From the NCBI RefSeq assembly GCF_015776785.2, contig NZ_LFMD02000007.1, forward strand, positions 1 through 64,000: 64,000 nt of DNA, read 5' to 3'. The position numbers and the translations under genes are program-made. Source of the stretch: Kitasatospora sp. SUK 42. Its GTDB lineage: Bacteria > Actinomycetota > Actinomycetes > Streptomycetales > Streptomycetaceae. Positions 49,591 to 53,085 of the stretch are shown piece by piece (within the stretch, counting starts at the first letter, position 1; each line of letters opens with the position of its first letter). The notes below the pieces were generated by a model. The model made no database searches. It was not told the origin of the DNA and saw only the letters and a program-made list of their open reading frames with translations.

Positions 49591-50028
49591 CTACCGGCGG
49601 ATGCTCGGCTTCAGCTCCAGGAAGCGGGCGAGCAGACCGTTGACGAAGGCCGGGGAGTCGTCCGTGGAGAACTCCTTGGCGATCTCGACGGCCTCGTCCA
49701 GGACGACCGCGTCCGGGACGCCGTCCTCCCAGATCAGCTCGTAGGCACCGAGCCGCAGGACGTTGCGGTCCACGATCGGCATCCGGTCGAGGGTCCAGCC
49801 CACGGCGTACTGCTCGATCAGGTCGTCGATGCGACGCGCGTGCTGGACGTACCCCTCGATCAGCTCCATCGTGTACTCGGCGACCTGCGGGGTACCCTCG
49901 TCGGGCTTGGGCTCGCGGGCGCGGGCCACCCAGTCGGCGAGGACCTGCTGCGGGTCGACCCCGCGGTGGTCGGCCTCGAAGAGGATCTGGAAGGCCCGGG
50001 TGCGGGCCTTACTGCGTGCGGCCGACAC
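49591..50028 (-). CDS. nusB: Transcription antitermination factor NusB
   Basis: A 145-residue all-helical RNA-binding factor for rRNA transcription antitermination. SKARTRAFQILFEADHRG at the start, RMPIVDRNVLRLGAYELIW in the middle, and VLDEAVEIAKEFSTDDSPAFVNGLLARF at the end are family hallmarks. GTG 50028 begins 4 bases after the efp stop, so the two are co-transcribed. Confidence 0.97.
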   Translation of the reverse strand: MSAARSKARTRAFQILFEADHRGVDPQQVLADWVARAREPKPDEGTPQVAEYTMELIEGYVQHARRIDDLIEQYAVGWTLDRMPIVDRNVLRLGAYELIWEDGVPDAVVLDEAVEIAKEFSTDDSPAFVNGLLARFLELKPSIRR

Positions 50029-50032
50029 GGAC

Positions 50033-50596
50033 TTACTTCACCCGGCCGAGGTAGCTGCCGTCGCGGGTGTCGACCTTGACCTTCTCGCCGGTGACGACGA
50101 AGAGCGGGACGGCGATCTCGGCGCCGGTCTCCAGGGTGGCCGGCTTGGAGCCACCGGTGGAGCGGTCGCCCTGGACGCCCGGCTCGGTGTGGGCGATGGT
50201 CAGCTCGACCGCGGCCGGGAGCTCGATGTACAGGACGGCACCCTCGTTGGTGGCGACCAGGGCCTCGAAGCCCTCCAGCAGGTACTTGGCGGCGTCGCCG
50301 ACGACGGCCGGCTCGACGGTCAGCTGGTCGTAGGTGTCCATGTCCATGAACACGAAGTTCTCGCCGTCCTTGTACGAGAACTGCATGCCGCGCTTGTCGA
50401 CATTGGCGGTCTCGACCTTGGTGCCCGCGTTGAAGGTCTTGTCGACGACCTTGCCGGTCAGGACCTCCTTGAGCTTGGTCCGCACGAAGGCCGGGCCCTT
50501 ACCGGGCTTGACGTGCTGGAACTCGACGACGGACCAGAGCTTGCCGCCCTCCAGCTTGAGGACCATGCCGTTCTTGAGATCGTTCGTGGAAGCCAC
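50033..50596 (-). CDS. efp: Elongation factor P
   Basis: A 187-residue translation factor that rescues ribosomes stalled at polyproline. Three beta-barrel domains. The domain I loop reads [12 protein letters not shown], with the lysine in the palindromic PGKGP context of actinobacterial EF-P, which is thought to work without lysine modification. The C-terminal [19 protein letters not shown] and [20 protein letters not shown] segments are typical. GTG 50596 with GGAG upstream. Confidence 0.97.
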
Positions 50597-50653: not shown

Positions 50654-50676
50654 GACGGCCTTCGGGGGCCGCCGTC
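50654..50676 (-). terminator. Short hairpin after the M24-family gene
   Basis: GACGGC (50654-50659) pairs with GCCGTC (50671-50676), overlapping the stop of the M24-family gene, in the 78-base gap before efp. Weak; efp may also be read from the upstream promoter. Confidence 0.35.
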
Positions 50677-51781
50677 ACAGGGCGAGGAGCTCCTTGGTGG
50701 TGATGGTGAGCAGCTCGGGCCCGCCCTCTTCGAGGGGGCGCACGACGAGCGTGTCCTCGATCCGGACCCCGCCCTTGCCCGGGAGGTGCACCCCTGGGCC
50801 GACGGTGACCGGTACGCGGCTGTCCAGTTTACCCATGTCCGAAGGACCGAGGCGCGGCGCCTCCCGGATCTCCAGGCCGATGCCGTGGCCCACCGGGTGA
50901 GGGGAGAGCTCGGTGTGGCCCGCCGCCTCCAGGACCTGCCGGGCGGCCCGGTCGGGTACGCACTGCTCGACGCCCGGTCCGAGGGCCTCCCGGCCGGCCC
51001 GCTGGGCGCGGAAGACCAGCCGGTGCAGCTCGACCTGCCAGGGCGCGGGGGCGGCGCCGATCACGAAGGTCCGGGCGGTCGAGACGCCGTAGCCGCGGTA
51101 GCGGGCGCCCATCACCACGGTGAGGAAGTCGCCCTCCTCCACCCGGCGGTCGGTCGGCTGGTGGGCGGGCTGGCCGGAGTGGCTGCCGGTGCCGACCGAG
51201 ACCGGGAAGGCTGCCCGGTCCGCGCCGTGGTCGATCATCCGGCGCTCCAGCTCCATCGCCAGGTGCCGCTCGGTGCGGCCGACCAGGATCGACTCCAGCA
51301 GTTCGCCGAGCGCCTGGTCCGCGATCTCGGCGGCGATCCGCAGGTCGGCGATCTCGTGCTCGTCCTTGACCACCCGCAGCCGCTCGACCATCTGGCCGAG
51401 GTCCGCCAGCCGGGCCCCCTCCAGCAGCCCCGCCACCGCCCGGTGCCGGGTCACGGTCAGGTCGTGCTCCTCCACCGCGAGCTTCCGCAGGCCCATCCGC
51501 CCGGCGTCGGCCGCGGCGGCCAGCGCGGTGTCCGCCCCGGACGGCACCGGGACCTGGATGACGTCGGCGGCGATCAGGTGCTCCCCCGAGTCGTCCGGTG
51601 GCAGGTCGTCCGGCAGCGACAGCAGCGCCCGCTCCCTGGTCAGCAGCAACGTCGCGCCGCAGGGCGCGCAGCCCGTCAGGTACCGCACGTTCGCCGCCCG
51701 GGTCACCAGTGCCGCGTCGACCCCGGCCGCACCGCAGTGCTCCCGCACCCGCTCCCGCCGACCCGCGTACGCATCCGCCAT
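50675..51781 (-). CDS. M24 (Xaa-Pro peptidase) homologue with degenerate metal site
   Basis: A 368-residue two-domain protein of the aminopeptidase P/prolidase fold: N-terminal creatinase-like domain, then a pita-bread domain. By alignment to E. coli AMPP, three of five metal ligands are replaced. The first aspartate is V223 (TVVMGARYRGYG), the second is S234 (VSTARTF), and the first glutamate is G328 (VGPG). The histidine (HPVGHGIGL, H299) and last glutamate (RIEDT, E342) remain. It is probably not a classical peptidase. It sits upstream of efp and nusB, a conserved neighbourhood, so a peptide- or Pro-binding role is possible. Confidence 0.85.
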   Translation of the reverse strand: MADAYAGRRERVREHCGAAGVDAALVTRAANVRYLTGCAPCGATLLLTRERALLSLPDDLPPDDSGEHLIAADVIQVPVPSGADTALAAAADAGRMGLRKLAVEEHDLTVTRHRAVAGLLEGARLADLGQMVERLRVVKDEHEIADLRIAAEIADQALGELLESILVGRTERHLAMELERRMIDHGADRAAFPVSVGTGSHSGQPAHQPTDRRVEEGDFLTVVMGARYRGYGVSTARTFVIGAAPAPWQVELHRLVFRAQRAGREALGPGVEQCVPDRAARQVLEAAGHTELSPHPVGHGIGLEIREAPRLGPSDMGKLDSRVPVTVGPGVHLPGKGGVRIEDTLVVRPLEEGGPELLTITTKELLAL

Positions 51782-51864
51782 GCGTCGAGCCTACGAACCC
51801 CCACCCCAAACCGCCCGCCGAGCACCCCCCACCGGGGCGCTCACCGCCCCCCTTCGTCACGGCC

Positions 51865-52038
51865 CTACGCCTCCTTTTCCTCGATCAGCCCCCGGCGGTA
51901 GGCCGGGACCAGGTTCCGCGGGACGAGCACCTCCCGGCCGTTCAGGGTGATCGGGACCAGTTCCGGGGCCGTCGCCTTCCACTGGGCGCGGCGGTGCCTG
52001 GTGTTGCTGCGGGAGGTCCTGCGCTTGGGGACTGCCAT
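51865..52038 (-). CDS. rpmF: Ribosomal protein L32, cysteine-free paralogue
   Basis: A 57-residue L32: it opens [20 protein letters not shown], the universal L32 start. The C-terminal half ([15 protein letters not shown]) lacks the paired cysteines that bind zinc in the standard protein, so it is the zinc-independent form used when zinc is scarce. The start ATG 52038 lies 9 bases after the rpsR-like stop. Last gene of the minus-strand arm of the zinc-independent ribosomal cluster. Confidence 0.9.
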
Positions 52039-52047
52039 CGAGGGCTC

Positions 52048-52257
52048 CTATCGGGTGGTGCCGGAGGTGTACGGGAGGGGGGCCGTCTCCCGGGCGTTCC
52101 TGACGGCCCGGGCGATCGCCCGCTGCTGCTGGACGGTGAGGCGGGTGACCCTGCGATGGGGGCACCTTCCGGCCGAAGGCTGGGGGAGGGTCTTGCCCCG
52201 GTCGGAGACGAAGCGGCGCAGCAGGTCGTTCTTGGCGATCTTGCTCTGCTTGGCCAT
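52048..52257 (-). CDS. rpsR: Ribosomal protein S18 variant fused to an S14 start
   Basis: A 69-residue protein. Residues 1-11 ([11 protein letters not shown]) match the S14 N-terminus almost exactly. Residues 12-22 ([11 protein letters not shown]) and 35-69 ([19 protein letters not shown] onward) are S18. Residues 23-34 ([12 protein letters not shown]) match neither and are coded by a 36-base palindromic insertion. The first about 30 residues of normal S18 are absent. The usual streptomycete order L28-S14-S18 suggests that a deletion joined rpsN to rpsR in frame. The start overlaps the L28 stop (TGATG). Whether it still enters ribosomes is open. Confidence 0.85.
52156..52191. repeat. 36-bp palindromic insertion inside rpsR
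   Basis: Read on the minus strand it holds CTCCCCCAGCCTTCGGCCGG followed by AAGGTGCCCCCAT. The core CCTTCCGGCCGAAGG is nearly palindromic. It resembles short GC-rich palindromic repeats that I recall being common between genes in Streptomyces. It replaces about three residues of the S18 sequence with twelve, without shifting the frame. Confidence 0.65.
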
Positions 52258-52493
52258 CAGACCTTCTCCCCCCGGGCGCGGATGCGGGCCACGGCGGCCT
52301 CGATGCCGATCGTGTCGACGGTGCGGATGCCCTTGGCGCTCAGCACGAGCCGGACGTACCGGCCCTCGCCGGGCAGCCAGTAGCGCTTGCGCTGGATGTT
52401 GGGGTCGAAGCGGCGCGGTGTCCGGCGGTGCGAGTGCGAGATCGCGTTGCCGAAGCCGGGCCGGCGGCCGGTGAGCTGGCAGTGGGCGGACAT
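52257..52493 (-). CDS. rpmB: Ribosomal protein L28, zinc-independent paralogue
   Basis: A 78-residue L28: [20 protein letters not shown], then [20 protein letters not shown] and [17 protein letters not shown]. The usual CxxC pair is reduced to one cysteine, fitting the zinc-free class. ATG 52493. First gene of the minus-strand arm, directly downstream of the Zur-box-like palindrome; its stop overlaps the S14/S18 hybrid start. Confidence 0.92.
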
Positions 52494-52546
52494 GGGTGCT
52501 CCCTGGCGTTCGGGAATGGGCAGGACGGAGCTCACGTTACACCAGA

Positions 52547-52561
52547 TGAAAATGACTTCCA
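52547..52561. promoter_or_regulatory. Zur box
   Basis: TGAAAATGACTTCCA matches the Streptomyces Zur consensus TGAAAATGATTTTCA at 13 of 15 positions. It lies between the divergent L28 and L33 genes, so zinc-loaded Zur would repress both arms. The setting (zinc-free ribosomal paralogues) independently supports it. Confidence 0.8.
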
Positions 52562-52625
52562 TTTCGGTGTACGGTCTCGATCCAACCCTTCGAACCGAAC
52601 GCCCCGAGGCCCCAGGAGGACCCCG

Positions 52626-52790
52626 ATGGCCCGCAGTGAACTGCGCCCCGTGATCAAGCTCCGCTCCACGGCCGGGACCGGCTACACGTACGTGACCCGC
52701 AAGAACCGCCGGAACGACCCGGACCGGATGATCCTGCGCAAGTACGACCCGGCCGCCGGCCGGCACGTCGACTTCCGCGAGGAGCGCTAG
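52626..52790 (+). CDS. rpmG: Ribosomal protein L33, zinc-independent paralogue
   Basis: A 54-residue L33: [29 protein letters not shown] and [19 protein letters not shown]. The CxxC pairs of the zinc form are absent. ATG 52626 has AGGAGG 9 bases upstream. First gene of the plus arm, followed by L31 after 46 bases. Confidence 0.93.
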
Positions 52791-52836
52791 GAACAACAAC
52801 ACCTGCGCCAGGAACAACACCCGGAGGAGCCCAGTC

Positions 52837-53085
52837 ATGAAGTCCGGAATCCACCCCGAATACCGCCCGGTCGTCTTCCGCGACAAGGTCGGCGGCCTCG
52901 CCTTCCTCACGCGGTCGACCATCACCAGCGACAGCACGGTCGAGTGGGAGGACGGCAACACCTACCCGGTGATCGACGTCGAGATCTCCTCGGCGAGCCA
53001 CCCCTTCTACACCGGCCAGTCCCGGGTGCTCGACACCGCCGGCCGGGTCGAGCAGTTCCGTCGGCGCTACGGCGACCGGCACTGA
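52837..53085 (+). CDS. rpmE2: Ribosomal protein L31 type B
   Basis: An 82-residue type B L31 (no CxxC motif): [54 protein letters not shown], then a basic end. Type B replaces the zinc-binding type A under zinc limitation, releasing stored zinc. ATG 52837 has GGAGGAG upstream. Followed by a strong terminator. Confidence 0.96.

Follow-up and report, generated by a model that had tools for sequence, protein, structure and literature searches.

An M24 peptidase homologue is encoded immediately upstream of efp and nusB in the 64,000-nucleotide stretch of DNA analysed here (the window), which comes from Kitasatospora sp. SUK 42. The locus raises two questions, namely whether the protein can still act as a peptidase and, if it cannot, why it has been kept beside the gene for the polyproline factor EF-P. 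An earlier note on the same DNA had proposed that three of the five metal ligands are missing and that the neighbourhood of efp suggests a binding or ribosome-linked role. We addressed both parts of this proposal by comparing the protein with its orthologues across the class.

The locus and the active-site residues

The genes discussed below lie on the minus strand of the window at the following positions.

50675..51781, minus strand: gene of the putative PepQ-derived pseudo-peptidase (pseudo-PepQ), ATG start, 368 aa, Creatinase_N plus Peptidase_M24
50033..50596, minus strand: efp, encoding EF-P with a PGKGPA loop, about 80 bp downstream of the M24 gene
49591..50028, minus strand: nusB, following efp

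Both Pfam domains were recognised well above their cut-offs, with Creatinase_N spanning residues 8-138 (PF01321, 62.2 bits against a cut-off of 22) and Peptidase_M24 spanning residues 147-348 (PF00557, 161.7 bits against 23, 2.7e-47). The NCBIfam equivalogs for PepQ and related proteins scored below cut-off (NF040821, 176 against 630; NF007310, 154.7 against 393), as did TIGR00495, the Ebp1/PA2G4 family (11.3 against 430.05). Tree position and the gene order pepQ-efp-nusB both place the protein in the efp-linked PepQ orthologue group. The top Foldseek matches of the AlphaFold2 model were all M24 proteins of the prolidase, AMPP or creatinase kind, which confirms the fold only. The AlphaFold2 models of A2 and A3 were poor (mean pLDDT 63.6 and 65.6, with approximately the last 70 residues below 50), and were therefore too weak to be overlaid or to show where on the surface the frozen residues described below would lie. 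Seven other M24 loci are present in the same genome, and the one that was aligned (L001) has an intact D/D/H/E/E set.

Directly upstream of the M24 gene, at 51857-52860, is a group of small ribosomal protein genes, named by eye as L32-, S18- and L28-like on the minus strand and L33- and L31-like on the plus strand. They resemble the alternative, zinc-independent set, and L32/L28/L33 matches were found upstream of the M24 gene in just 6 of 80 named relatives.

The ligand columns were placed by alignment to the solved prolidases 1wy2, 3q6d and 1pv9 and to about 170 orthologues; AMPP numbers were assigned by family equivalence, i.e. by sequence alignment and not by structure overlay. The positions, all identified by alignment, are as follows.

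51113..51115, minus strand: V223, lost metal ligand Asp (AMPP D260)
51080..51082, minus strand: S234, lost bridging metal ligand Asp (AMPP D271)
50798..50800, minus strand: G328, lost metal ligand Glu (AMPP E383)
50885..50887, minus strand: H299, retained metal ligand His (AMPP H354)
50756..50758, minus strand: E342, retained metal ligand Glu (AMPP E406)
51164..51166, minus strand: A206, lost catalytic His (AMPP H243)
50864..50866, minus strand: R306, lost catalytic His (AMPP H361)

The five ligand columns thus read V, S, H, G and E in place of the D, D, H, E and E of active members, and the three losses and two retained ligands named in the earlier note were reproduced exactly. The losses at A206 and R306, which that note had missed, come in addition to these. 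H207, the neighbour of A206, is conserved, and H295 (AMPP His350) is present in the Kitasatospora protein but gone in most of its relatives. With these ligands, and with A206, H295 and R306 at the catalytic histidine positions, the protein lacks the residue set of an active Xaa-Pro metallopeptidase. Mutation of D260, D271 or H243 in AMPP abolishes activity, as cited in PMC10377022.

Distribution and origin of the catalytic loss

The M24 gene was looked for in 200 genomes from the family, 80 from the order and 296 from the class, and the ligand columns were read in those loci that have efp alongside. Both Asp ligands were gone in 97 of 97 aligned orthologues from core Streptomycetaceae and the catalytic histidines in nearly all of them, whereas all 72 efp-linked orthologues outside this clade, including six genomes from two basal genera of the family, had D/D/H/E/E and kept the catalytic histidines almost everywhere. 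The same D/D/H/E/E set was read in all of 32 additional sequences, which came from two other families. VSHGE together with R306 was common to the 30 sampled Kitasatospora sequences; Streptomyces and related genera mostly had CEHED (with variants RQHED, REHED, SEHED, GEHED and CRHED), and other core genera had ASHGE, SAYGE, AAAGE, ASAGE, SCHGE or ASGGE. The N-domain motif residues that are invariant in intact members (columns 41, 42, 57, 59 and 60) have also been lost in the core clade. The check on streptomycete orthologues that the earlier note had called for therefore gave a consistent picture, i.e. the losses are shared across the clade and intact ligands occur outside it only. As the flanking columns align without gaps, the intact ligands outside the clade indicate a real loss and not an alignment error, so that on these alignments the loss of the catalytic site is neither an alignment error nor strain-specific.

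In 45 sequences of the Streptomyces type (loci L039-L081) the ligand columns read C/E/H/E/D and the catalytic histidines are mostly gone. Four of the five positions in this type could, to judge by residue identity, still bind one metal.

In a maximum-likelihood tree the core sequences formed one clade (support 100/100) on a long stem of 0.46, sister to intact basal Streptomycetaceae and next to intact sequences of the same order, while the M24 paralogues from the same genomes fell outside the PepQ clade. When the ligand, pocket, helix and C-terminal columns were removed, there was still one core clade (98/88). The single clade, also without the trait columns, indicates that the loss arose once; on the sequences sampled it is placed in the ancestor of core Streptomycetaceae, with no reversal in the sample.

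The gene has been maintained since, under purifying selection. Median pairwise dN/dS was 0.19 for the Kitasatospora sequences and 0.23 for those with CEHED, and all 200 genomes of the family had a match. Two of these (G189 and G034) had paralogue-level matches only and were considered as natural knockouts; this was rejected, because efp is absent from both as well and the missing locus is best read as a gap in each assembly. Frameshifts in the M24 gene of two further assemblies (G084 and G074) are probably assembly errors. In the first of these the gene (L099) is split across three frames in a 3-contig assembly, which may reflect an assembly error or a truly broken gene. Another core-clade member (L101, genome G015) has an in-frame insertion before its GHG motif and more ligand changes, with the helix motif and C-terminus kept. 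Taken at the level of its codons, the pseudo-PepQ protein is not decaying. Almost all core Streptomycetaceae, including the main antibiotic producers, have pseudo-PepQ beside efp, and family-based annotation will call it an Xaa-Pro peptidase, which is very probably wrong.

Constraint on the protein and on the 3' end of its gene

We compared conservation in the core clade with that in intact families at matched divergence (71-73% mean identity against 70% and 77%). The pattern was inverted: the eight catalytic columns had 1.83 times the protein-mean entropy in the core clade and 0.00 in the intact families, whereas for residues 155-185 the core clade gave 0.16 and the intact families 1.07 times that mean. 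This block, which corresponds to the first two helices of the pita-bread domain, was picked post hoc from the profile, and the weight of the result therefore rests on the contrast with the intact control families.

51227..51319, minus strand: frozen helix pair, codons 155-185, near-invariant protein with free synonymous sites

The ratio pN/pS in the helix pair was 0.013 in the Streptomyces set (0.316 for the gene) and 0.025 in Kitasatospora (0.234 for the gene), against 0.490 in intact basal relatives (0.492 for the gene). Synonymous variation in the helices equalled the gene mean in Streptomyces (0.94 bits) and fell moderately below it in Kitasatospora (0.43 against 0.68 bits). As the synonymous sites are free, the constraint on these codons acts on the protein. 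Residues that are variable in both intact families and invariant in the core clade include E152, E160, L162, E163, V167, R172, H173, D184, H185, D211, E215, R261 and E265, and even the divergent members L098 and L101 retain the helix sequence almost unchanged. The helix motif, GRTERH.A.ELERRM, is already partly there in the intact sister lineages, which suggests that a second role predates the catalytic loss. A DNA pattern for the frozen helix matched only 2 of 198 genomes across the phylum; it was too strict and missed even known carriers.

The 3' end of the gene is conserved in a different manner, with features at the following positions.

50678..50725, minus strand: frozen C-terminus, codons 353-368, synonymous variation low too
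50826..50831, minus strand: TAAACT -10-like box, codons 317-319, probable efp promoter
50751..50755, minus strand: GACAC (WhiA consensus), codons 343-344, candidate site

Over codons 318-368 synonymous variation is low (pS 0.164 against 0.39), and the freezing of the C-terminus is thus partly a nucleotide-level constraint. All 75 members of the two main core groups have GGTAAACTG at the start of this region, and this sequence includes the rare codon AAA. The hexamer TAAACT occurs at one fixed codon register in 75 of 75 sequences of the Streptomyces CEHED and Kitasatospora sets, and of 62 other genomes from the class, all intact, 54 have TANNNT at the same register, compared with a background of 0.0035. 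No clear -35 element was found for the box in the 3' end of pepQ. The box is probably a class-wide efp promoter embedded in pepQ, which would give the transcript a leader of approximately 220 nt. ChIP-seq of WhiA in S. venezuelae placed a peak 191 bp upstream of efp, whose expression is lowered in the whiA mutant (PMC3781837); at the spacings observed between the two genes this distance falls within the M24 gene. The GACAC site may nevertheless be coincidental, because it overlaps a conserved Asp-Thr codon pair that occurs with the intact enzyme too.

These results also bear on the neighbourhood of efp. Whether intact or dead, the M24 gene is separated from the downstream efp by some 0-130 bp in almost every genome, and the order pepQ-efp-nusB is ancestral, occurring with fully intact PepQ throughout the class. 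As this order is found with the active enzyme, the adjacency is no evidence for a role at the ribosome. The embedded box can by itself explain why the two genes stay together, and with the probable efp promoter lying within the M24 gene, little about function can be read from the adjacency to efp here. A comparison of EF-P and NusB for co-change gave no sites clearly specific to the catalytic loss.

Possible functions and known systems

The best explanation, to which we give a probability of about 0.7, is that this orthologue of the class-wide, efp-linked PepQ lost its catalytic centre once and now serves as a binding or scaffold protein without catalysis. On this reading the Xaa-Pro peptidase PepQ would have lost its centre in a single episode, in the ancestor of core Streptomycetaceae, leaving a protein predicted to cleave no peptides and to form no dinuclear metal centre. 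Its selected function would be the docking of a conserved partner via the face that carries helices 155-185, perhaps together with the C-terminal tail. The active enzyme probably already had binding as a secondary function, which later became the sole one. Of the earlier proposal, the pseudo-peptidase stands, clade-wide and with a single origin, and the binding role gains indirect support from a non-catalytic region that is frozen in all core Streptomycetaceae; the ribosome link drawn from efp adjacency does not hold, given the ancestral order.

It is quite improbable that the gene is kept for its DNA, with a 3' end that holds efp promoter or regulatory sequence and a protein of little use. 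The -10-like box at its fixed register, the low pS of codons 318-368 and the WhiA peak would all fit such an arrangement, but it leaves unexplained why the frame is open over its full length in almost all genomes and why codons 155-185 are frozen at the protein level while their synonymous sites are, in Streptomyces, as free as those of the rest of the gene. About equally improbable is a protein that is still an enzyme, its centre rebuilt as a one-metal site (the Streptomyces type, C/E/H/E/D) or for metal-free chemistry like that of creatinase. Creatinase, which was among the matches in the search against solved structures, has the M24 fold and needs no metal for catalysis, and CEHED is common to 45 sequences; however, the former ligand and catalytic-histidine columns vary faster than the protein mean within the clade, the N-domain motif residues have been lost too, and Kitasatospora retains just H and E, with some members lacking even the equivalent of H299 (AAAGE, ASGGE). 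A decaying pseudogene, or an artefact of sequencing or alignment, has next to no probability: the frameshifted copies in two assemblies would be expected of it, but dN/dS of about 0.2, a full-length frame nearly everywhere and one shared origin refute it.

The ribosome-linked role put forward in the earlier note would make the protein a factor bound to the ribosome or to EF-P, and thus a bacterial counterpart of Ebp1/Arx1, which is in our estimate unlikely. Ebp1 is an inactive M24-fold protein that binds the ribosome, with helix alpha1 and the loop after alpha2 contacting rRNA ES27L (PMC7005732), and by fold order these contact elements should match the frozen helices. The frozen residues are however mixed acidic and basic and not notably basic, the Ebp1-type insert domain is absent, ES27L is eukaryotic, EF-P shows no change that clearly goes with the loss, and its gene was already adjacent to that of the active enzyme. 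The more specific form, by analogy a lineage-specific Ebp1 counterpart that would dock on the ribosome (or on EF-P there) via the frozen helix pair and tune translation, is slightly less likely again; if true, the tuning would perhaps concern the translation of polyproline proteins in streptomycete development. It is doubtful, too, that the protein pairs with and regulates an active M24 paralogue or another enzyme, an arrangement put forward for PID-5 and APP-1 of C. elegans (PMC10377022). The other M24 loci of the genome, with an intact member among them, would provide possible partners, but these paralogues are only distantly related, at about 32% identity, and occur as well in genomes whose PepQ is intact. 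Moreover, prolidase dimers involve the N-terminal domain, and in pseudo-PepQ this domain is the fastest-evolving region.

A non-catalytic binding protein therefore remains our preferred reading, and with a single loss, intact sisters and frozen helices it would be a clean case of an enzyme turned binding protein. A literature search, without most subscription journals or supplements, found no paper on the Streptomyces protein. Among known systems, the efp-linked PepQ of Actinomycetes, of which the mycobacterial PepQ, Rv2535c, is an example, is orthologous to pseudo-PepQ, with the same locus, domains and tree clade. It differs in that PepQ outside core Streptomycetaceae keeps all five ligands, whereas the core clade has lost both Asp ligands and catalytic His residues. 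Another example is the pepQ-efp-nusB operon of Saccharopolyspora erythraea (PMC3359211). The archaeal and Bacillus prolidases 1wy2, 1pv9 and 3q6d are the best solved relatives over the full length (E of about 1e-46 with a single sequence and 1e-58 with a profile) and, unlike pseudo-PepQ, are active dinuclear metallopeptidases. Ebp1/PA2G4 and Arx1 are non-peptidases that have kept the M24 fold and act by binding, as proposed for pseudo-PepQ, but they are of the MetAP type, with an insert domain and a Lys-rich tail. PID-5 has an AMPP-like domain with its ligands lost and His243 changed to Ala, and a binding role has been proposed for it as well, although it is eukaryotic, fused to an eTudor domain and of separate origin. 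Creatinase shares the M24 fold and is metal-free, but has kept catalytic residues of its own, whereas the pocket columns of pseudo-PepQ are unconstrained in the clade.
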